Notes under the pieces: model-generated | Database searches by the model: none | Told to the model about the DNA's origin: nothing | The model's input: the letters and a program-made list of their open reading frames with translations, nothing else | Assembly (NCBI RefSeq): GCF_004917065.1 | Contig: NZ_SSYA01000002.1 | Span: forward strand, 186,001-250,000 | Length of the DNA stretch: 64,000 nt | Reading direction: 5' to 3' | From: Geomonas ferrireducens | Lineage (GTDB): Bacteria; Desulfobacterota; Desulfuromonadia; Geobacterales; Geobacteraceae | Translations under genes and position numbers: made by a program | In this document: piece by piece, positions 25,088 to 45,716 of the stretch | Layout: each line of letters begins with the position of its first letter | How positions within the stretch are numbered: the first letter of the stretch is position 1

Positions 25088-27427
25088 ATGCCGATCATAA
25101 CACTCGCGCCAGACGGGTCCCTCCAACTTCCGGAAGAGCTCAGGAATGCCCTGCAGCTGCGTCCGGGTGACCGGGTCAGCGTCGAGGTTGTCGACGGCGC
25201 CCTGCGCGTCAGCAGGCAGGTTCCAGCAAAAGACGCTGCAAAGCCCAAGGCAAGCGCCACCACTGCGCAGCCTCCCACGCCGTTGAAAGCCACTCCCGCA
25301 ACCTTGTCACTGCCGGAAGAGTTGAAAACCCCAATGACCGCCATCAAAGGGGTGGGGCCAAAGCTCGCCGATCTCTTTGCAAAGAAAGGGATCGTGACGG
25401 TCGAGGACGCCCTCTACCTGCTGCCGCATCGCTACGAGGACCGCCGCCAATTGAAGCGGATCGCGGAACTGCGCCCGGGGAACAGCGAGGCCTTCTTCGC
25501 CACCGTGGTATCCGCCGAGGCGCAGGTCACCAAGGGGGGGCGGCGTTACTTCGAGGCTATCGTCAGGGACGAGACCGGCAGCATGCCGCTCAAGTGGTTC
25601 AATTTCCAACCAAACTTCCTGAAAAAGCAGTTCACGCCGGGCCGACGCGGCATCTTCATCGGCGACGTGCACCAGTTCGGCTTTCAGCGCGAGATGCATC
25701 ACCCCGAGGTTGAATGGGCAGGGGAGGGGGAGGGTATCGAGCAGGTTATGGCGCGCGACCCCGAGAATTTCGGCCGCATCCTCCCCGTCTATCCGCTCAC
25801 CGAGGGGGTGAGCCAGAAGGTGATGCGCCGCATCATGCGAGAGGCGGTGCCGCGCTACAGCCGTTACGTGAAGGAAGCGCTGCCCGAGGCGATGCTGCAC
25901 CGGCATCACCTTTTGAGTCTTCCGGTGGCGCTGAGGGAGGCGCACCAGCCCGATCCCGCGGCCGCGATAGCCGAGATGAACAGCGGCCGCTCCAAAGCGC
26001 ACCGATCGCTCGCCTTCGACGAGCTTTTCTTCCTGCAACTTGGGCTCGCCATGAAAAAGCGGGGCATCGCGCTCGAGGACGGCATAAGCTTCCAGGTGAC
26101 GCACCGTTACACCAAGGAGCTTTTGAAGCTCCTTCCCTTCAGCCTTACCGGCGCACAGAAACGTGTCCTCTCCGAGATCAAGGAGGACATGATGGCGCCG
26201 CACCCGATGCACCGCCTTGTGCAGGGGGATGTCGGCTGCGGCAAAACGATCGTGGCCCTCATGGCAGCACTCGTCAGCGTCGAGAACGAGTATCAGGTGG
26301 CCATCATGGCCCCGACCGAGCTTCTAGCCGAACAGCACTACCTGAACATCCACCGCTTCTGCGAACAGCTCGGCATCACCGTTGCGCTTTTGACCGCCAG
26401 CATCAAGGGTAAGGGTGACACGCTGGACAAAATCGCCTCCGGCGAGACCCGGATCGTAGTCGGCACGCACGCCATGATCCAGGATAAGGTGGAGTTTCAC
26501 CGGCTGGGACTCGGCATCATCGACGAACAGCACCGCTTCGGCGTGGTGCAGCGCGCTCTCCTGAAGAAGAAGGGAGGGAATCCCGACATCCTCGTCATGA
26601 CCGCTACCCCAATCCCGCGTACCCTTTCCATGACTGTCTTCGGCGATCTCTCCCTCTCCGTAATCGACGAGCTTCCCCCGGGGCGTACTCCGATCGAGAC
26701 CCGGATGGTGCGCGAATCGCGTCGGCGGGAGGTTTACTCGTTGGTGCGCGAGGAGGTGCAGAAGGGACGACAGGCCTACGTTATTTATCCCCTCGTCGAG
26801 GAATCGGAAAAGATCGACCTGAAGGCTGCCGTTCAGATGGCCGATCACCTGGCGCAGGAGGTTTTCCCGGACCTGCGCGTCGCCGTTCTCCACGGCCGGA
26901 TGAGTGCCGCCGAGAAAGAGGCGGTGATGAAAGGATTCAAGGCGGGGGAAACCGACATCCTCGTCTCCACTACGGTAATCGAGGTAGGCATCGACGTCCC
27001 CAACGCGACGGTGATGGTGATCGAGCACGCCGAGCGTTTCGGCCTGTCGCAACTGCACCAGTTGCGCGGCAGGGTAGGGCGCGGCAGCGAGCGCTCGCGC
27101 TGCATCCTGCTCGCCGGGGACAGGCTCTCCGAAGACGGGCAGAAACGGCTCGAGGTGATGGTCAAGAGTTCGGACGGCTTCGTCATCGCCGAGGCGGACC
27201 TGCAGATCCGGGGGCCTGGAGATTTCCTTGGTACCCGTCAGGCGGGGCTTCCCGAGTTGCGCGTGGCGGACATCCTGCGCGACGGCGGTGTTCTAGAACA
27301 GGCAAGGAAAGAAGCCTTCGCACTGGTGGAGCATGATCCGGAGTTGAGCATGCCGGGGCACGAAAGGCTGCGTGGAGAGTTGATGCTGCGCTGGGGCGGC
27401 AGGCTGGAACTCGCTTCTATCGGGTAG
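25088..27427 (+). CDS. recG: ATP-dependent DNA helicase RecG with AbrB-like N-terminal extension
   Basis: Branch-migrating helicase that remodels stalled forks and Holliday junctions. 779 aa against 693 in E. coli. Residues 1 to about 45 (IITLAPDGSLQLPEELRNAL, LRPGDRVSVEVVDGALRV) look like a SpoVT/AbrB swapped-hairpin unit, followed by an Ala/Pro/Thr-rich linker to about residue 80. Then comes the canonical protein: IKGVGPKLADLFAKKGI, the wedge domain, Walker A LVQGDVGCGKTIVALMA, DEQH box IIDEQHRFGVVQ, and the C-terminal HQLRGRVGRGSERSRC. The ATG at 25088 is preferred because a GTG at 25052 lies inside a terminator hairpin; no good ribosome-binding site precedes 25088, so the exact start is uncertain. 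Confidence 0.93.
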   Translation: MPIITLAPDGSLQLPEELRNALQLRPGDRVSVEVVDGALRVSRQVPAKDAAKPKASATTAQPPTPLKATPATLSLPEELKTPMTAIKGVGPKLADLFAKKGIVTVEDALYLLPHRYEDRRQLKRIAELRPGNSEAFFATVVSAEAQVTKGGRRYFEAIVRDETGSMPLKWFNFQPNFLKKQFTPGRRGIFIGDVHQFGFQREMHHPEVEWAGEGEGIEQVMARDPENFGRILPVYPLTEGVSQKVMRRIMREAVPRYSRYVKEALPEAMLHRHHLLSLPVALREAHQPDPAAAIAEMNSGRSKAHRSLAFDELFFLQLGLAMKKRGIALEDGISFQVTHRYTKELLKLLPFSLTGAQKRVLSEIKEDMMAPHPMHRLVQGDVGCGKTIVALMAALVSVENEYQVAIMAPTELLAEQHYLNIHRFCEQLGITVALLTASIKGKGDTLDKIASGETRIVVGTHAMIQDKVEFHRLGLGIIDEQHRFGVVQRALLKKKGGNPDILVMTATPIPRTLSMTVFGDLSLSVIDELPPGRTPIETRMVRESRRREVYSLVREEVQKGRQAYVIYPLVEESEKIDLKAAVQMADHLAQEVFPDLRVAVLHGRMSAAEKEAVMKGFKAGETDILVSTTVIEVGIDVPNATVMVIEHAERFGLSQLHQLRGRVGRGSERSRCILLAGDRLSEDGQKRLEVMVKSSDGFVIAEADLQIRGPGDFLGTRQAGLPELRVADILRDGGVLEQARKEAFALVEHDPELSMPGHERLRGELMLRWGGRLELASIG

Positions 27428-37029: not shown

Positions 37030-37049
37030 GTGCAAACCGTATAGGCTTC

Positions 37050-37147
37050 AACGCAAAGACGCAAAGCCGCGGAGGCGCAAAGGTAAACCTTCAAGCAAAC
37101 CGTTTAACAGCTTGCCTTCTCTTTGCGGCTCCGCGTCTTTGCGTTGT
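37050..37147. repeat. Imperfect inverted repeat built on CGCAAAGACGCAAAG
   Basis: Left arm 37050-37082 (CAACGCAAAGACGCAAAG, then CCGCGGAGGCGCAAAGG) and right arm 37119-37147 (CTCTTTGCGGCTCC, then GCGTCTTTGCGTTG) can pair over about 25 bases. It resembles a dispersed intergenic repeat type found in many bacterial genomes (recalled, not searched). It separates the LivK-like gene from the riboswitch promoter. Confidence 0.65.
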
Positions 37148-37191
37148 GGTTTTAGTGTCTTTGCCTTAGTCTTTGCCGTTACCGATTACCC

Positions 37192-37220
37192 TTGACAACT
37201 GGCATAGGAAAAATTATATT
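37192..37220 (+). promoter_or_regulatory. Promoter of the riboswitch-htpX-terC transcript
   Basis: TTGACA (37192-37197), exactly 17 bases, TATATT (37215-37220). Close to consensus; start predicted near 37227, the first bases of the riboswitch. Confidence 0.8.
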
Positions 37221-37228
37221 TCGTACCA

Positions 37229-37369
37229 TTAAAGGGGAGTAGTTATCGGCCGGAGACATGGCCGACCCGAGTTTCGTCAATACGGTCGCAAGACCCGGAA
37301 CCGGGGCAGACATCCTGTCAACAAGACCTTTATCCTGGTAATTATGCCGAGGGTAAAGGTCTTTTTATT
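37229..37369 (+). ncRNA. yybP-ykoY (manganese) riboswitch with overlapping terminator
   Basis: The aptamer spans about 37229-37333. P1 pairs TAAAGG (37230-37235) with CCTTTA (37327-37332); the family-specific GGGGAGTAG follows the 5' strand and CAACAAGACC precedes the 3' strand. P2 is TCGGCC/GGCCGA (37246-37251 with 37260-37265), and CGTCAATACGG is the expected internal segment. AAGACCTTTA (37323-37332) can instead pair with TAAAGGTCTT (37354-37363) followed by a T-rich tail, forming a terminator. Terminator and P1 are therefore mutually exclusive: ligand-stabilised P1 should allow read-through (ON switch). Known members sense Mn2+ and control efflux proteins such as MntP, P-type ATPases and TerC/YkoY, which fits terC being in this operon. 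Confidence 0.85.
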
Positions 37370-37424
37370 TGCCCTCAGCCGAAACAAGTCCTTCGGGACA
37401 TCTTCAATCGTAGAGGTAAATACT

Positions 37425-38285
37425 ATGCAAAGACTCAAAACGACATTTCTGCTGGCTCTTCTCACCGTTCTCATGGTGACCATGGGTAACGCCATGGGCG
37501 GGCGGTCCGGCATGGTCACCGCCTTCGTCATCGCCCTTGGCATGAACTTCTTCTCCTACTGGTTCTCGGACAAGATCGTGCTGCGCATGTACGGCGCCCA
37601 GGAGATCGGCGAGCACGACCACCCGACCTTCTACAACCTAGTGCGTAACCTCGCCATGCGCGCAGGGCTCCCCATGCCGAAGGTGTACATCATACCTTCC
37701 GACAGTCCCAACGCCTTCGCGACCGGCCGTAACCCGCAGAACGCTGCCGTTGCCGCTACGGAAGGGATCCTGCGCATCCTTTCACCGGAGGAACTTGAAG
37801 GGGTAATGGCGCACGAACTCGCCCACGTGCAAAACCGGGACATCCTGGTCGGCACCATCGCCGCCACCTTCGCAGGCGCCATTTCCATGATCGGCAACAT
37901 GTTGCAGTGGGGCGCCATGTTCGGAGCAGGCCGCGGCGATGAAGAGGACGGCGGCGGTATCGCCGGACTGGTCGGGTCGCTCGCGATGGCGATCATCGCC
38001 CCGATCGCCGCGATGCTCATTCAGATGGCCGTCTCGAGGTCGCGCGAGTATCTTGCCGACGCCACCGGCGCCGAGATCTGCGGCCGTCCTCTTGTGCTCG
38101 CCTCGGCCTTGAGGAAACTGCATATGGCTTCGCACCAGCTCCCGATGCAGGAGGCGAGTCCCGCGACGGCGCACATGTTCATAGTGAACCCGCTTACCGG
38201 CGGCGGCTTGATGGAACTCTTCTCCACGCATCCTCCGATGGAGGAGCGCATCGCGCGCCTCGAGCAGATGGCGGTAAGGCGTTAA
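37425..38285 (+). CDS. htpX: HtpX-type membrane zinc metalloprotease
   Basis: 286 aa. Two N-terminal membrane helices ([20 protein letters not shown] and a second from about residue 25), catalytic HELAH in [18 protein letters not shown], two further helices, and the third zinc ligand in [16 protein letters not shown]. Removes damaged membrane proteins in known bacteria. Start at 37425 is preceded by GAGGT and gives the standard length; the open frame to 37344 would start within the riboswitch terminator. First gene after the riboswitch. Confidence 0.95.
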
Positions 38286-38383
38286 AGGCTCCTCCCCCCG
38301 GAGGGGGGAGGTCGGGTGGGGGGAAGAGCCTGAACGAGACGCTGTGCGCCCCCTCCCTGTCCCTCCCCCTCCGGGGGGGGTGA
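38286..38383 (+). repeat. GC-rich dispersed repeat (CTCCTCCCC family), copy 2
   Basis: About 98 bp between htpX and terC. Starts CTCCTCCCCCCGGAGGGGGG and ends CCCCCTCCGGGGGGGG; the middle contains CCCCCTCCCTGTCCCTCCCC, shared with copies 1 and 4. Same orientation as copy 1. Confidence 0.75.
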
Positions 38384-38420
38384 CCCCCTTGAATAAGATT
38401 TCACATAAGGAGAACTCTTA

Positions 38421-39173
38421 ATGGATTGGTTCACCGACCCGCAGGTCTGGTTGGCTCTCATTACGCTGACCGCGCTGGAGATCGTGCTCGGCATCGACAA
38501 CATCATCTTCATCTCCATCCAGGCCAGCAAGCTCCCTGCGGCACAGCAGGAGAAGGCGAGGCTGACCGGCCTCGGCCTCGCCATGTTCATTCGCGTGGCA
38601 CTTCTCTTCTCGCTTACCTGGCTCATGGGGCTTACTACGCCGCTTTTCAGTCTCTTCGGAAACGAGATCTCCGGCCGTGATCTGATCCTCCTAAGCGGCG
38701 GTCTCTTCCTCATCTGGAAGAGCACGATGGAAATTCACGAGAAGCTCGAAGGCGAAGAGGTCGTGCACGCCTCCAGGGTGGGTGCAACTTTTGGCGCCGT
38801 CATCGTGCAGATCCTGCTGCTAGACATCGTTTTCTCGCTCGATTCCATCATCACCGCCATCGGCATGGCGAGCCAGCTCTTCATAATGGTGGCTGCTGTA
38901 GTCATCGCAGTCGGATTCATGATGCTATTTTCCGGCAAGATCAGCGCCTTCGTGGAAAGGCACCCGACCATCAAGATGCTCGCCCTTAGCTTCCTTCTTT
39001 TGATCGGCGTTTCGCTCATAGGCGAGGGCTTCGGGATGCACATCCCCAAGGGGTACATCTATTTCGCGATGGCTTTCTCGGTCATGGTCGAGATGCTCAA
39101 CCTGCGGGTGCGGCGGGGTAAACCTGTTAAACTGCATGAGCCGCATCTTGATACGGACAGGGCAGGGGAGTAG
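38421..39173 (+). CDS. TerC-family membrane protein (probable metal exporter)
   Basis: 250 aa with about seven membrane segments. The family motifs are the acidic in-membrane pairs: LEIVLGIDNIIFISIQASKL near the start and LLDIVFSLDSIITAIGMA after the cytoplasmic loop. Members such as YkoY and Alx are under yybP-ykoY riboswitches and export Mn2+ in characterised bacteria. Here the matching riboswitch lies upstream of htpX, one gene earlier. AAGGAG precedes the ATG. Confidence 0.92.
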   Translation: MDWFTDPQVWLALITLTALEIVLGIDNIIFISIQASKLPAAQQEKARLTGLGLAMFIRVALLFSLTWLMGLTTPLFSLFGNEISGRDLILLSGGLFLIWKSTMEIHEKLEGEEVVHASRVGATFGAVIVQILLLDIVFSLDSIITAIGMASQLFIMVAAVVIAVGFMMLFSGKISAFVERHPTIKMLALSFLLLIGVSLIGEGFGMHIPKGYIYFAMAFSVMVEMLNLRVRRGKPVKLHEPHLDTDRAGE

Positions 39174-39226: not shown

Positions 39227-39511
39227 ATGAAGTGCCCCGTATGCAACGACGCAAACCTTGTCATGTCTGAACGTCAGGGGATTGAAATCGACTACTGTCC
39301 ACAGTGCCGCGGCATTTGGCTTGATCGCGGGGAGCTCGACAAGATCATAGAGCGCTCTGCAATCCAGCCGCAGCAGCCCCAGCCCCAGCCCCAGCAGCAA
39401 CAGCAACAGCAACAGCAACAGTACGCGCCACAACCCGATTATCACCATGCGCAGCACCACGGGCATAAGCCGTACCGTAAGAAATCATTTTTCGAAGAGC
39501 TCTTCGACTAA
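39227..39511 (+). CDS. Zinc-ribbon (TFIIB-type) small protein with poly-Gln stretch
   Basis: 94 aa. Residues 1-45 are the zf-TFIIB pattern: MKCPVCNDANLVMS and IDYCPQCRGIWLDRGELDKI with two CxxC pairs. Then a PQQPQPQPQ segment runs into a Gln tract encoded by alternating CAG/CAA, followed by a His-rich part (YHHAQHHGHKPY) and a basic/aromatic tail KKSFFEELFD. AGGAGG before the ATG. Function not known; the zinc-ribbon and His-rich tail suggest metal binding. It lies after terC and may share the riboswitch-controlled transcript. Confidence 0.88.
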   Translation: MKCPVCNDANLVMSERQGIEIDYCPQCRGIWLDRGELDKIIERSAIQPQQPQPQPQQQQQQQQQQYAPQPDYHHAQHHGHKPYRKKSFFEELFD

Positions 39512-39593
39512 TCGATGCCGGCAGGGGGAAGCTTTCCTCCTGCCAGCTTTTTCCTTGACACCTTTGCCTTTCCTTAGCTATCTTTCCGGCGTG

Positions 39594-39956: not shown

Positions 39957-40069
39957 ATTCCCCTTTACGGCTGTAGTGCGTCTAACGCATAGGCTTGCCC
40001 TCTCGGGACAGTCATGCCGTGTTACGTCCATTTTCGTATTTTTCATCATCTGATCAGGAGGTTTTCCCA

Positions 40070-41365
40070 TTGGGAACAACTGCATTCAGGGGAGCGCGGC
40101 TTCTTCTGCCCGTGGCCCTTTGCCTTTTGGCAGCTTCACCCGTAACGGCTGAAACGCAGGCCCTTTCTCTGCGCCAGGCCGTTGAAACTGCGCTCAGTAA
40201 CAACCCCGATATCGACTCTTTGCGCAAGGAGGCGGGCATTTTCGACGCCGCATCCTTGCGCGCCGGACTGCTTCCCAATCCGACCCTCGAGGTGGAGGGC
40301 GCAACTGGAGCCTTAACCGGCAGCAGTGCCGACAACACCCTCTCCCTCGGTATTTCCCAGGAACTTCTGCTTGGAGACAAGCGGAACAAGCGCAGTCTCG
40401 TCGCCGAGCGTGACATGGCCGCGTACCGCTGGCAGGTGCTCGACCGCGAGCGCACCCTAAAGGAGCAGGTGCAGGGTGCCTACTACGACGCGCTTCTCGC
40501 CCGACAGAGGCTCGCTCTGGCGTACCGTTCCATCGATCTGAACAAACAGTTGCTCCAGGTGGCGGAGGACCGTCTCAACGCAGGGGATATCCCGGAGCTT
40601 GAGATGTACCTGGTCCAGGTGGAACTTGCCCGCAGTGAGGGCGCCCGCATCGATATCGACCGTGCTTACCTCGAGTTCAGTTCAAGACTCTTCTCCCTGC
40701 TCGCTCTCCCTCACGGCGAAGCGCCTTTGCTGAACGGGAGCCTCGATGCCGGGACTTTCAAGATCGCGAACCTGACCGACCTGAAGCGCCTGGCCCTCAA
40801 CCGTCGTCCTGACCTTAAGGCGGTCGATGCCGCAGCTAGTAAAGGTGATGCGGAGGTGGCACTCGCTGAAGCCGAGGCGATTCCCAACCTGACCGCAGGG
40901 GTCGCACTGTCTCGCGAGGCGAGTTCCATGGAAATTGGCGGCGTTGAGGGGAGAGAGACTGCCTACACGGTGGGCCTTAAGTTTTCCATGCCGATCCCGT
41001 TGTTCGACCGAAATCGCGCCGGGGTGCAGGAGGCGCGGGCGAAGCGCAGCAGTGCGGAGATCCGCGCGAAGGCCGCAGCCGTCACTGTCGAGCGTGAGGT
41101 GGAGAGCGCCTGGGCGAGCCTCGCCAACGCGGAAAAGGTCGTTTCGCTCTACAAGTCAAGCATCCTGCGTCAGCTTGAAGAGAACCTGAAGCTCACCCAG
41201 GAGGCCTACCGGCTGGGCGAGGTCGGCATCCTCGCGGTGATCGAGGAACAAAAGAAGTTTTTCGAGGTAAGCGACAGTTACCTGACCGCCCTGCATGCAC
41301 GGCAGATGGCCATGGCGAAATTAGAATCGGCGGTAGCCGCTGACATGAACGGAGGTGAGCAGTGA
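40070..41365 (+). CDS. TolC-family outer-membrane channel of an RND efflux system
   Basis: 431 aa, CusC/CzcC-like outer-membrane factor. TTG start at 40070 with AGGAGG eight bases upstream; an N-terminal signal peptide (RLLLPVALCLLAASPVTAET) follows at once. Two TolC repeats are visible: LSLRQAVETALSNNPDIDSL and LKRLALNRRPDLKAVDAA, with long helical segments. Its stop overlaps the next GTG by four bases (GTGA). Confidence 0.92.
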   Translation: MGTTAFRGARLLLPVALCLLAASPVTAETQALSLRQAVETALSNNPDIDSLRKEAGIFDAASLRAGLLPNPTLEVEGATGALTGSSADNTLSLGISQELLLGDKRNKRSLVAERDMAAYRWQVLDRERTLKEQVQGAYYDALLARQRLALAYRSIDLNKQLLQVAEDRLNAGDIPELEMYLVQVELARSEGARIDIDRAYLEFSSRLFSLLALPHGEAPLLNGSLDAGTFKIANLTDLKRLALNRRPDLKAVDAAASKGDAEVALAEAEAIPNLTAGVALSREASSMEIGGVEGRETAYTVGLKFSMPIPLFDRNRAGVQEARAKRSSAEIRAKAAAVTVEREVESAWASLANAEKVVSLYKSSILRQLEENLKLTQEAYRLGEVGILAVIEEQKKFFEVSDSYLTALHARQMAMAKLESAVAADMNGGEQ

Positions 41366-42603
41366 ACAAGAAGGGAATCATCATAGGACTCATTCTGGCT
41401 GTCGCTCTTGGCGGCGGCGTTGCATACCGGCTGGCCAACTCCTCCACGGCAGCAGAGCACGCGGAACATGCGGAGGCAGGGCACGGCGAGGAAAAAGGCG
41501 AGCACGCCGAAGGGAAAGAGGAAAAGGGGCACGAAGGCCACGACGAGCACGGAGCAAAGCTCGTCAAGATGAGCGCAGAGGTGCAAAAGCAAAGCGGCGT
41601 GGTCGTCGCAGCCGCGAAAAAACAGCAGATGGCCGGCATGATCAGCGCGACCGGCAAGGTGGAGGCTAACGCCGACCGCATCGCCCACGTCTCTCCGCGC
41701 ATCTCCGGAAAGGTCGTCGCGGTTCGCGCGTCCTTGGGAGACAGCGTGGGAGCTGGGCAGGTGCTTGCCACGCTCGACAGCGTCGAGCTCGGGGAGGCTT
41801 TAAGCCGCTACCACCAGTCGAAGACGCGGCTTTCACTGGCCCAGTCCAACATGGACCGGGTGAAGGTGCTGGTGGACAAGAAGATCGCGGCGCGCAAGGA
41901 GATCCTGCAGGCCGAGACCGACTACAAGACGGCACAGACGGAACTGCACACCGACCAGGAACGCCTGGAGCTGTACGGCGTCTCCGCGGGTGATCTCAAG
42001 GCAGGCAGAAAGCCGCTTCTACCGGTCCGTTCGCCGATTTCCGGCGTGATCACGGAAAAGCACGCCATCGTCGGCGAACTCGCCGATCCAGCCAAGAGTC
42101 TCTACACGGTCGCCGACCTCTCCTCGGTTTGGGTGATGGTGGATATCCACGAAAAAGATCTCGCCAAGGTGCGGCGCGGCCAGACGGCGACAGTGATGGT
42201 GAACGCCTTCCCCGATGCCAAGTTCCGGGGGCGTGTCACTTACCTCGCCGACGTCGTCGACGAAGCGACCCGAACCATAAAGGCCCGGGTGGAGGTGGCG
42301 AACCCGGGGCGCAAACTCAAGCCGGAGATGTTCGCCACCGTCGAGCTCGCCATAGCGGCTGACGCGGCAGCGGTGCTTGCGGTTCCCGAGGAGGCGGTCC
42401 AGGAACTGGAAGGTAAGAAGCTCGTTTTCGTCGCCGAGGGGGAAGGGGCGTTCGAGTCGCGCCGGGTTGAGCTTGGCCGCGCTTCCGGCGGCATGGTAGA
42501 GGTGCTCTACGGTCTCAAGGAAGGGGAACGCCTGGCGGTGAAGGGGGGCTTTGTCCTCAAGTCGGAATTGCAGAAAGGTGAAATCGAGGGACACGATCAC
42601 TAA
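41362..42603 (+). CDS. Periplasmic adaptor (membrane fusion) protein, heavy-metal RND type
   Basis: 413 aa. One N-terminal membrane anchor (GIIIGLILAVALGGGVAYRL), a His/Glu-rich stretch (HAEHAEAGHGEEKGEHAE, EEKGHEGHDEHGAK) likely to bind metal, then the lipoyl-type GKVEANADRIAHVSPRISGK, a hairpin and beta-barrel domains (VDIHEKDLAKVRRGQTATVM). Bridges the channel and the RND pump. The metal-binding N-terminus places it with CusB/CzcB/CnrB. GTG start overlaps the preceding stop. Confidence 0.92.
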   Translation: MNKKGIIIGLILAVALGGGVAYRLANSSTAAEHAEHAEAGHGEEKGEHAEGKEEKGHEGHDEHGAKLVKMSAEVQKQSGVVVAAAKKQQMAGMISATGKVEANADRIAHVSPRISGKVVAVRASLGDSVGAGQVLATLDSVELGEALSRYHQSKTRLSLAQSNMDRVKVLVDKKIAARKEILQAETDYKTAQTELHTDQERLELYGVSAGDLKAGRKPLLPVRSPISGVITEKHAIVGELADPAKSLYTVADLSSVWVMVDIHEKDLAKVRRGQTATVMVNAFPDAKFRGRVTYLADVVDEATRTIKARVEVANPGRKLKPEMFATVELAIAADAAAVLAVPEEAVQELEGKKLVFVAEGEGAFESRRVELGRASGGMVEVLYGLKEGERLAVKGGFVLKSELQKGEIEGHDH

Positions 42604-42617
42604 GGAGACCAGCACCC

Positions 42618-45600
42618 ATGCTTGAAAGAACAGTCGCATTCATGCTGAAGCAAAAGGGTATGGTCATCTTCCTCGCGTTGGTGATCGTCGTCTTCGGCTT
42701 CTATTCCTATCTGAAACTACCCGTAGATGCCTTCCCGGATGTCACCAACATCCAGGTGGAAGTGGTGAGCCACGCCGACGGGCTTTCGGCGGAGGAGATC
42801 GAGAGAAACGTAACCTATCCCATCGAGACGGCGATGCGGGGGCTTCCCGACATAGAACAGCTCCGCTCGGTAACCAAGTTCGGACTTTCCATCGTCACCG
42901 TCGTCTTCAAAGACAACGTCGACATCTATTTCGCCAGACAGCTGGTTTTTGAGCGGCTGGCCGAGGCCCGCGAAAAGGTACCCAAGGGAGTCGAGGTTTC
43001 CATGGGGCCGATCGGCACCGCGATGGGGGAGATCTACCAGTACACCCTCGAAGGTAAGATGCCCAAGGACCCCGAGGGGCAGCGCGCTTACCTTACCAAC
43101 CTGCGCACCATCCAGGAATGGGTCCTCGCCCCGCAGCTAAAGGGGGTTCCCGGCGTCAACGAGATCAACTCGTTCGGCGGGTACTTCAAGCAGTACCAGG
43201 TGGAGGTCTCGCCCGAGAAGCTTTTGAAGTTCGGCGTGACGGTGGACGACGTCTACGGCGCGATCGGCAGCAACAACAGTAACGTGGGAGGCAACGTCCT
43301 CGAGCGCGGCACCGACCAGTACATCGTGCGCGGCGTCGGCCTCATCCAGACCACTGCAGACATCGAGAACATCGTCCTCAAATCTCAGGGGGGAACCCCG
43401 GTCTACCTGCGCGACGTGGCCCAGGTGAAAATCGGCGAGGCGGTCCGCATGGGTGCCGCGATAAAGGACGCACAGGGCGAGGCGGTCGGGGGCATCGTGA
43501 TGATGCTCAGGGGCGAGAACAGCCGCGACGTCGTGGCGCGGGTCGCGGCCAAGGTAAAGGAGATCAACGAAAGCAACATGCTTCCCGACGGCATCAAGAT
43601 AGTGCCGTACTACGACAGAAGCGACATCGTGAAGTCGAGCGTCGGCACCGTGAACAAGGCCCTCGTCGAGGGAGCGCTCCTCGTCCTCGTCGTGTTGTAC
43701 CTCCTTTTGAACAGCATCCGGGGCAGCATCGTCGTGCTGCTCGCGCTGCCGCTGTCGCTTCTGGTCACCTTCATCGTGATGAAGCTTACCGGCATCACGG
43801 CGAACCTCATGTCACTGGGCGGCCTTGCCATCTCCATCGGCATGATCATCGACACCACCATCATCCAGGTTGAGAACGTGCAGCGCCACCTGAGCGAGGA
43901 GGGGGAGCGTCAGCCGAAACTCGTTACCGTTCTGAAGGCGGTCATGGAGGTGCGCAAGCCGAGCATCTTCGGGGAGCTCATCATCGCGCTCACCTTCATC
44001 CCGATTCTCACCCTGGAGGGGATCGAGGGGAAGATGTTCGGCCCCCTGGCCATCACCGTCGCCATCGCGCTCTTGTCCTCGCTGCTTTTGTCGATCTTTA
44101 TCATCCCGGTGCTTTGCAGCCTGTTCCTCAAGCCGCAGCTCGAGAAGGAAAGCCGCATCATGGTGTACGCCAAGGAGCAGTATCTCCCGCTTCTGGAGTA
44201 CGCGCTCAACCGCAGGAAGGTTGTGCTAGGCATCGCGGGGGGACTTCTCGTCTTCTCCCTCTTCCTCGTGACACGGCTTGGCACCGAGTTCATGCCGATC
44301 ATGGACGAGGGCTCCTTCGACATGGACATCGCCATGCTGCCGGGCGTCTCCCTTGCTAAGGCGCTCGACGTGAATCAGCAGGCGACGCAGAAACTCAAGA
44401 AGTTCGAGGAGCTCGATGTGGTGGTCGGTCGCATCGGGCAGACCGGCGTGGCGCTCGATACCCGTGGCCCCGATAAGACCGGATACGTCGGGGTTTTCAA
44501 GCCGAAGGAGCTGTGGAAGCGCGACATTTCGAAGGAGGAGCTGACCAACGAGATGCGTGAAGAGCTGGAAAAGATCCCCGGGATCAGCTTCGGGTTCAGC
44601 CAGCCGATCCAGTGCCGCATAGATGAACTGGTTGCGGGAACGCGCGCGCAGCTCATCGTGAAGCTCTTCGGCGACGATCTGAACGTCTTACGCGACAAGT
44701 CTGCCGAGATCGCCAGGGTGCTCGCCAAGGTGCGCGGCGGCACCGACCTCAACACCGAAAAAGTCTCGGGACAGCCGTACCTGACCGCGACCATCGACCG
44801 GGCGAAGATCGCGCGCTACGGTCTCAACATAAGCGACGTGCAGAACGTGATCGAGATCGCGGTGGCAGGCAAGGCTGCCTCCACCTTCTACGAGGCGAAC
44901 CGCAGCTTCGATATCACCGTGCGTCTCCCGGAGGAAAAGCGGAACTCGCTCGAAGCGATCCGGAACCTCCTCGTCACCACCAAGTCCGGGTTGAACGTGC
45001 CGCTGGAGCAACTCGCTGAAGTGAAGATGGTGGAAGGACCGGTGCAGATAAGCCGCCAGGACGGTGTCCGGCGCATCGGTATCGAGATGAACGTAAGCGG
45101 AAGAGATATCGGAAGTTTCGTTGCCGAAGCCAAAGAGAAGATCCGGTCGCAGGTAAAGCTGCCGCCGGGGTACTACCTCACCTGGGGCGGTCAGTTCGAG
45201 AACCAGCAACGGGCGATGAACCGGCTCATGATCATCGGACCGGTCGCGGTGGCGCTCATACTGCTTCTGCTCTACGTGACCTTTAGATCCATTCGTCTCG
45301 CCTTCCTCGTGATCGCTAACCTGCCGTTCGCCCTGATAGGCGGAATCTTCTCGCTGTTCCTCTCGGGGCAGTATCTATCAGTCCCGGCATCGGTCGGTTT
45401 CATCGTCCTTTTCGGCGTGGCGGTGCTGAACGGCCTAGTACTGGTCTCCCGGATCGTACAGTTGCGGGAGGAGGGGCTTTCGGTCGACGAGGCGGTGCGC
45501 AAGGGTGCCCTCGATCGTCTGCGGCCGGTGCTGATGACGGCTTCGATCGCTATTTTCAGTCTGGTGCCGATGCTCCTTGCCGGTGGAACCGGCTCAGAGA

Positions 45601-45716
45601 TCCAGAAGCCGCTGGCAACGGTCGTCGTGGGCGGACTGATTACTTCGACGCTGCTCACTTTGTTGATAATCCCTGCTGTGTACGGGTGGTTTGAAAGGAA
45701 AACGCAGGCCGAATAG
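42618..45716 (+). CDS. Heavy-metal RND efflux pump (CusA/CzcA family)
   Basis: 1,032 aa inner-membrane proton antiporter. Twelve membrane segments in the RND layout: first at FLALVIVVFGFYSYLKLPVD, then the large periplasmic loop, a block of five from VEGALLVLVVLYLLLNSIRG, the proton-relay segment SLGGLAISIGMIIDTTIIQV with Asp, and the second half from RLMIIGPVAVALILLLLYVT. That segment differs from the CzcA form (DFGIIVDGAVV); it is nearer to CusA but not identical, so the metal (Cu/Ag versus Zn/Co/Cd) is not decided. Confidence 0.92.
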   Translation: MLERTVAFMLKQKGMVIFLALVIVVFGFYSYLKLPVDAFPDVTNIQVEVVSHADGLSAEEIERNVTYPIETAMRGLPDIEQLRSVTKFGLSIVTVVFKDNVDIYFARQLVFERLAEAREKVPKGVEVSMGPIGTAMGEIYQYTLEGKMPKDPEGQRAYLTNLRTIQEWVLAPQLKGVPGVNEINSFGGYFKQYQVEVSPEKLLKFGVTVDDVYGAIGSNNSNVGGNVLERGTDQYIVRGVGLIQTTADIENIVLKSQGGTPVYLRDVAQVKIGEAVRMGAAIKDAQGEAVGGIVMMLRGENSRDVVARVAAKVKEINESNMLPDGIKIVPYYDRSDIVKSSVGTVNKALVEGALLVLVVLYLLLNSIRGSIVVLLALPLSLLVTFIVMKLTGITANLMSLGGLAISIGMIIDTTIIQVENVQRHLSEEGERQPKLVTVLKAVMEVRKPSIFGELIIALTFIPILTLEGIEGKMFGPLAITVAIALLSSLLLSIFIIPVLCSLFLKPQLEKESRIMVYAKEQYLPLLEYALNRRKVVLGIAGGLLVFSLFLVTRLGTEFMPIMDEGSFDMDIAMLPGVSLAKALDVNQQATQKLKKFEELDVVVGRIGQTGVALDTRGPDKTGYVGVFKPKELWKRDISKEELTNEMREELEKIPGISFGFSQPIQCRIDELVAGTRAQLIVKLFGDDLNVLRDKSAEIARVLAKVRGGTDLNTEKVSGQPYLTATIDRAKIARYGLNISDVQNVIEIAVAGKAASTFYEANRSFDITVRLPEEKRNSLEAIRNLLVTTKSGLNVPLEQLAEVKMVEGPVQISRQDGVRRIGIEMNVSGRDIGSFVAEAKEKIRSQVKLPPGYYLTWGGQFENQQRAMNRLMIIGPVAVALILLLLYVTFRSIRLAFLVIANLPFALIGGIFSLFLSGQYLSVPASVGFIVLFGVAVLNGLVLVSRIVQLREEGLSVDEAVRKGALDRLRPVLMTASIAIFSLVPMLLAGGTGSEIQKPLATVVVGGLITSTLLTLLIIPAVYGWFERKTQAE

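Follow-up and report, generated by a model that had tools for sequence, protein, structure and literature searches.

The region of interest lies on the forward strand of the window, by which we mean the whole 64-kb stretch of DNA that was analysed, and consists of a leader followed by htpX, terC and a gene for a small zinc-ribbon protein. The leader, whose existence at nucleotides 37192-37369 was confirmed, begins with a sigma-70-type promoter (37192-37220, + strand) in which a -35 element (TTGACA) and a -10 element (TATATT) are separated by 17 nt. These elements match 11 of the 12 consensus positions, and an earlier note on this DNA was right to describe the promoter as near-consensus. Just 5' of it, at 37049-37146, there is an inverted repeat (CAACGCAAAGACGCAAAG...); since its core is present at 157 places in the genome when at most one mismatch is allowed, this repeat represents a dispersed family.

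The genes behind the leader follow one another in the order that the earlier note had given. The first, htpX (37425-38285, + strand), codes for a membrane zinc metalloprotease of the M48 family (PF01435, 122.3 bits) that scores 412.8 bits with the HtpX model NF002826 (cut-off, 369) and carries the HExxH motif as HELAH at residue 130. The second, terC (38421-39173, + strand), codes for a predicted TerC-family membrane metal transporter (PF03741, 160.6 bits), which lies outside the YkoY subfamily as delimited by the NCBIfam model for YkoY-type TerC, TIGR03716 (68.8 bits against a curated cut-off of 138.5). The small zinc-ribbon protein (PF13453) is encoded at 39227-39511 on the same strand, and its gene is possibly the third of the operon. 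Between htpX and terC lies the GC-rich repeat that had been noticed earlier (38294-38378, + strand), an inverted repeat whose core is found at 22 places in the genome with at most two mismatches, whereas a control with the reversed pattern gave none. The repeat was considered as a regulator and rejected, being a dispersed element. A simple scan detected no terminator-like site in the htpX-terC gap, and the two genes are probably co-transcribed. Farther downstream, at 39995-45716, there are ORFs for TolC-type, membrane-fusion-like and RND-type efflux proteins, separated from the operon by a terminator-like hairpin (39520-39544) and a promoter-like site at 39555; the outer-membrane efflux gene is met again at 11 of the 160 leader loci described below.

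The portion of the leader at 37230-37332 (+ strand) has the structure of an aptamer of the Mn2+ riboswitch, with helix P1, loop L1, an inner P1 helix, P2, P3 with its loop L3, and P4. It shows covariation and scores 112.8 bits with R1, a covariance model that we built from 32 aligned aptamers of relatives, the window sequence itself being one of the 32. The 5' strand of P1 (37230-37235), the switch helix that is called P1.1 in the literature, pairs with CCUUUA (CCTTTA in the DNA) at 37327-37332; the segment GGGGAGTAG overlaps this 5' strand and extends 3' of it. L1 is formed by GGAGUA (37236-37241) on its 5' side and AAGA (37323-37326) on its 3' side, and L3 is UCAAUAC (37277-37283), all on the + strand. 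The hallmarks of the yybP-ykoY type that had been pointed out in the leader are thus present, with the motifs at the places indicated. The fold predicted for the leader and its terminator has an energy of -59.2 kcal/mol (z = -5.33), which none of 200 shuffled sequences reached, while the first 110 bases of the leader alone fold into P1 and three hairpins with a z value of -2.72.

Of 147 related genomes, 122 gave a blastn match to the leader, which is conserved from P1 through the terminator, and R1 matched 119 of the 147 at an E value of 0.01. Among 395 genomes drawn across the phylum, a sample containing the own genome and overlapping with the 147 relatives, 30 had R1 matches at an E value of 0.001. 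In the alignment of the 32 aptamers, 33 base pairs are supported and 96.1% of the cells are paired, as against at most 53.5% when the structure was slid along the alignment. Changes on both sides of a pair occur at 20 of the 33 pairs and are spread over six of the seven helices, P1 being the one without such a change in these 32 sequences; they amount to 99 cells compared with a mean of 28.1 in shuffled alignments, and none of 500 shuffles gave as many. Further pair types stand out less, numbering 38 versus 33.7 in the shuffles, with 15 of 500 as high. In the larger set P1 also covaries: TAAAAG faces CTTTTA in four copies, and a variant in which TGAAGG faces CCTTTA through a G-U pair is found in 11.

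The residues of the core were compared in 161 aligned matches, which correspond to 160 places and 150 distinct sequences. GGAGUA of L1 and the opposite AGA are invariant (161/161), and L3 starts with UCA and ends with AC in every one of them. In the published structures the Mn-specific N7 contact is made by an adenosine of L3, A41 in Lactococcus lactis, where the loop reads UCAAUUC, and A48 in Xanthomonas oryzae, and the cross-helix contact by A10 of L1 (PMC6754395). When the loop letters are aligned by eye, A37279 would correspond to the Mn-contacting adenosine.

The promoter is a regular companion of these structures. Scores of at least 9 of 12 were found in 151 of 157 distinct stretches upstream of leader copies, the mean being 10.1 as compared with 7.4 in base-shuffled stretches, and in most of those 151 the distance from the end of the -10 element to P1 is 8-13 nt, a nearly fixed spacing.

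The leader ends in an intrinsic terminator (37323-37369, + strand) composed of arms at 37323-37340 and 37345-37363 and a U tract, which competes with P1. The proposal that the 3' strand of P1 doubles as part of the left arm of the terminator held at 37327-37332, and also in 158 of 160 copies of the leader; of the remaining two, one was too short and the other (L213) was not scored in this way. Terminator energies among the copies range from -16.3 to -29.5 kcal/mol. For the window leader in the absence of ligand, the predicted fold with the terminator has an energy of -59.2 kcal/mol versus -44.6 kcal/mol when P1 is forced; as the terminator fold is so much more stable without ligand, switching must be kinetic. 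Because the same strand is common to P1 and to the terminator, the leader would act as an ON switch. The same competition operates in the L. lactis switch, in which Mn2+ favours P1.1 and read-through, as summarized in the portion of PMC11087558 that deals with it.

One check named in the earlier note was a search with the Rfam model RF00080 (gathering score 45 bits in the Rfam 15 version), and absence of a match above threshold had been given there as grounds for abandoning the assignment. Taken literally, this is the result that was obtained: RF00080 had no match over threshold in the 64-kb window and none at 37180-37420 even at E values up to 10, and a search of the leader against Rfam at an E value of 10 returned only two chance families. 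Among the 147 related genomes, searched with stricter filters, none had an RF00080 match over the cut-off, the best reaching 23.7 bits, and 13 had any match at an E value of 0.1. In the own genome, the match that scores highest with RF00080 at an E value of 10 (21.3 bits) is a sister copy of the leader (L031).

The power of RF00080 was assessed with controls. The Escherichia coli alx leader, which we take to be an accepted and validated member of the manganese riboswitch class, was missed by RF00080 at an E value of 10, and that of E. coli mntP scored 44.9 bits, 0.1 bit short of the threshold. From Bacillus, Burkholderiales and other groups, 18 loci were picked by the core pattern out of 80 listed, and 3 of them passed the cut-off. 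The model works for some members of the class, since the cut-off was passed in 2 of 14 control genomes. As alx, mntP and most of the core-pattern loci fail too, the miss is weak evidence against the leader, and RF00080 seems to be too narrow a model.

By comparison R1, which does not include alx, matched the alx leader over its entire length (1-104 of 104) with 34 bits and an E value of 1.8e-8, and found nothing besides it in the 15 kb searched. Homology to alx over the whole aptamer was therefore found with R1, while E. coli mntP was not recovered by this model at an E value of 10. R1 also recovered, with 35-61 bits, all 18 of the loci that represent the core pattern in other groups, a result that is not independent of the core because the loci had been chosen by that same pattern. 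The assignment of the leader to the manganese (yybP-ykoY) class, with Mn2+ as the probable ligand, is supported by the homology to alx together with the invariant metal-binding core and the covarying helices.

To define the genes behind the leader we used the first 150 listed R1 matches and 10 hand-added ones, all strong matches, which make up 160 loci in 103 genomes (sample A). Plain ORF calling was dropped after it had yielded numerous spurious ORFs in reverse orientation in this GC-rich DNA, and the downstream genes were identified by searching six-frame translations with profiles made from clusters of ORFs. The first recognised gene was htpX at 93 loci, the small TerC at 28 and a CopG-type gene at 21; other first genes were rarer than the latter, and two loci had no recognised gene. 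A recount removed eight short or weak htpX matches (L104, L105, L116, L131, L161, L174, L206 and L236) and L098, whose htpX is the same gene as that of L093, leaving a clear and separate htpX in first place at 84 of the 160 loci, in 71 of the 103 genomes. At 60 of these 84 loci, in 58 genomes, a TerC-family gene is found within the 3.3 kb fetched, so that htpX and terC behind the leader, whose recurrence had been suggested as worth checking, are found together in many relatives; at the other 24 no terC was recognised in the fetched stretch, although some of these stretches end early.

A second sample of 58 genomes (sample B) was searched for both htpX and the leader, leaving aside 11 of the 104 htpX rows, the weakest ones. 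A leader lies 62-270 nt upstream of 62 of the remaining 93 htpX genes, where about 0.008 would be expected by chance, and conversely 62 of 108 leaders precede htpX. Such an htpX is present in 41 of the 57 genomes that have the gene, and 21 genomes have two of them. The 31 htpX genes without a leader include 28 whose products are 65-71% identical to the window HtpX. In the own genome there are four leaders, standing before the htpX-terC pair of the window, a second htpX with a longer TerC, a TerC protein of 395 residues, and a pair of CopG-type and Tim44-like genes; a fifth R1 match has an E value of 0.065. Up to four copies of the leader per genome are found within the genus. In the wider phylum, with positions judged by eye, htpX adjoins the leader at 6 of 20 loci (L380, L383, L386, L387, L391 and L396), and on a Desulfobacula contig the order is leader, TerC, Tim44-like protein, M48 protease. 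The comparison supports the view that an htpX gene coming first behind the leader is nothing unusual and that its control by the leader is probably conserved among relatives.

Taken together, these data lead us to propose, with a probability of about 0.88, that htpX-terC is driven by a riboswitch of the Mn2+ (yybP-ykoY) class that acts at the level of transcription and is of the ON type. The RNA family, the core residues, the helices, the shared strand and the conserved gene order are what the data show, whereas the ligand, the direction of switching, the co-transcription and the roles of HtpX and TerC are what we infer. Transcription would start just 5' of P1. When Mn2+ is low, the 3' strand of P1 would pair with the sequence downstream, the terminator would form and transcription would end before htpX. 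With Mn2+ bound between L1 and L3, P1 would stay closed and deprive the terminator of its left arm, and htpX-terC, possibly also the zinc-ribbon gene, would be transcribed. TerC would then export Mn2+ or load it into exported proteins, and HtpX would remove damaged or wrongly metalated membrane proteins.

The ligand could be another one. The hosts are known as iron and manganese reducers, and a variant of the class that keeps the fold and responds to a different divalent metal, e.g. Cd2+, Co2+ or Fe2+, would agree with a sequence that escapes RF00080 outside the core. Cd2+ likewise supports docking in this class (PMC6754395). Nevertheless the compared core, including the adenosine of the N7 contact, is unchanged in all 161 aligned matches, and metal transporters of the TerC and GDT1 families are among the downstream genes; a changed ligand therefore seems improbable to us. 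That the leader is a ligand-free attenuator or a constitutive terminator, conserved by descent only, would accord with the strong terminator seen in 158 of the 160 copies, but compensatory changes in six of the seven helices exceed those of both the slid and the shuffled controls, the tertiary core is invariant, the RNA is homologous to a known switch and it precedes many different genes, all of which makes this explanation hardly credible.

A different question is whether htpX is the target at all or an accidental passenger in an operon whose real target is terC or some other metal gene. TerC-family genes are present at 103 of the 160 loci of sample A, at 28 of which the small TerC comes first; at eight loci only the short or weak piece of htpX precedes other, intact genes; and tellurium-resistance-type transporters are the main targets of the class in the survey of PMC3766115, as far as its available text goes. 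We nonetheless consider it unlikely that htpX is a passenger, given that it stands clearly first at more than half of the loci, that 24 of those 84 loci have no recognised terC (some stretches ending early), and that the two htpX paralogues of the own genome each have a separate leader. As to the short matches, those at L104, L116, L131, L161, L174, L206 and L236 are scraps located 5' of Tim44-like, CopG-type or TerC genes, and the short matches are perhaps remnants of lost htpX genes.

The proposed Mn2+ switch before htpX-terC shares with the RF00080 class, as known from E. coli alx and mntP, Bacillus subtilis meeY and L. lactis yybP, the layout of the helices, GGAGUA with AGA and UCA, a switch helix P1 common to the terminator, and the control of TerC-type genes. 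It differs in that the window leader falls below the Rfam threshold, the protease gene htpX is often first, up to four copies occur per genome, and Tim44-like, UPF0182, CopG-type and GDT1 genes are also found behind it. The leaders that precede terC in Bacillus and Burkholderiales have the same core pattern, with R1 finding all 18; there, a TerC-type gene lies 50-200 nt downstream in nearly all those checked and no htpX adjoins.

For B. subtilis, the available portions of PMC10550928 report that MeeF, a TerC protein, is co-purified with HtpX and further proteins of quality control, and that loss of both MeeF and MeeY makes FtsH essential. A Mn riboswitch is described in the same text for meeY only, unlike the window, where a single leader precedes both htpX and terC. 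An operon that places htpX and terC together behind a single Mn-type switch agrees with the co-purification of MeeF with HtpX, and it turns the link suggested by the Bacillus pull-down into a testable genetic prediction. The regulon survey of PMC3766115, in the text available, did not analyse the delta-proteobacterial lineage, and the words yybP, htpX and terC do not appear in a study, dated 2004, of regulons in metal-reducing delta-proteobacteria. Our search of the open-access literature found no paper describing a riboswitch-led htpX-terC operon or a protease-led regulon: the RNA class is already known, and the protease-led regulon was not found in the literature searched.

Many of these bacteria produce Mn2+ by respiring Mn oxides. 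The distribution of the leader suggests that the level of Mn may control membrane protein quality control in many related bacteria; in many genomes a membrane protease, and not exporters alone, would then probably be controlled by Mn directly. The survey also yields a large set of Mn-type riboswitches that go undetected by the present Rfam model. A broader reading, which we offer tentatively and hold to be somewhat less than an even chance, is that the Mn2+ riboswitch of Geobacter-like bacteria, and of certain others in the phylum, governs a module devoted to exported and membrane proteins (HtpX, TerC, Tim44-like and UPF0182 proteins, sometimes with LemA, VTT/DedA-type or GDT1 proteins) that couples metal export or loading to the destruction of wrongly metalated membrane proteins, with TerC and HtpX as partners. 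If so, a rise in Mn2+, e.g. from Mn(IV) respiration, would trigger both responses together.

The composition of the loci is varied. Within the fetched stretches of the 160 loci of sample A, Tim44-like genes are present at 76, the small TerC at 74, CopG-type genes at 67, UPF0182 at 48, the longer TerC at 33, the zinc ribbon at 27, GDT1 at 10, FmdE and VTT at 8 each, a histidine kinase at 5 and LemA at 3. The names are those of Pfam matches of cluster members and presence means anywhere in the stretch, so that genes near the 3-kb edge may fall outside the operon and small ORFs are possibly false, as may be the case within the small clusters RHH, c8 and ZnRib. To our knowledge the bacterial roles of Tim44-like and UPF0182 proteins are poorly known, and their position behind the leader flags them as candidates for Mn-linked envelope functions. 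Behind the leader, genes for a small CopG-type protein and, after it, a Tim44-like protein form a recurrent pair (e.g. L242, 372-1663) with no obvious link to metals. At L098 two leaders on the same strand (G044:C82:24747-24849 and 25728-25830) are about 980 nt apart, with no recognised gene between them and with htpX, VTT and GDT1 genes after the second. One htpX copy behind a leader (G049:C1:1305998-1306846) contains an in-frame TAG and is perhaps a decaying paralogue or the product of a sequencing error.
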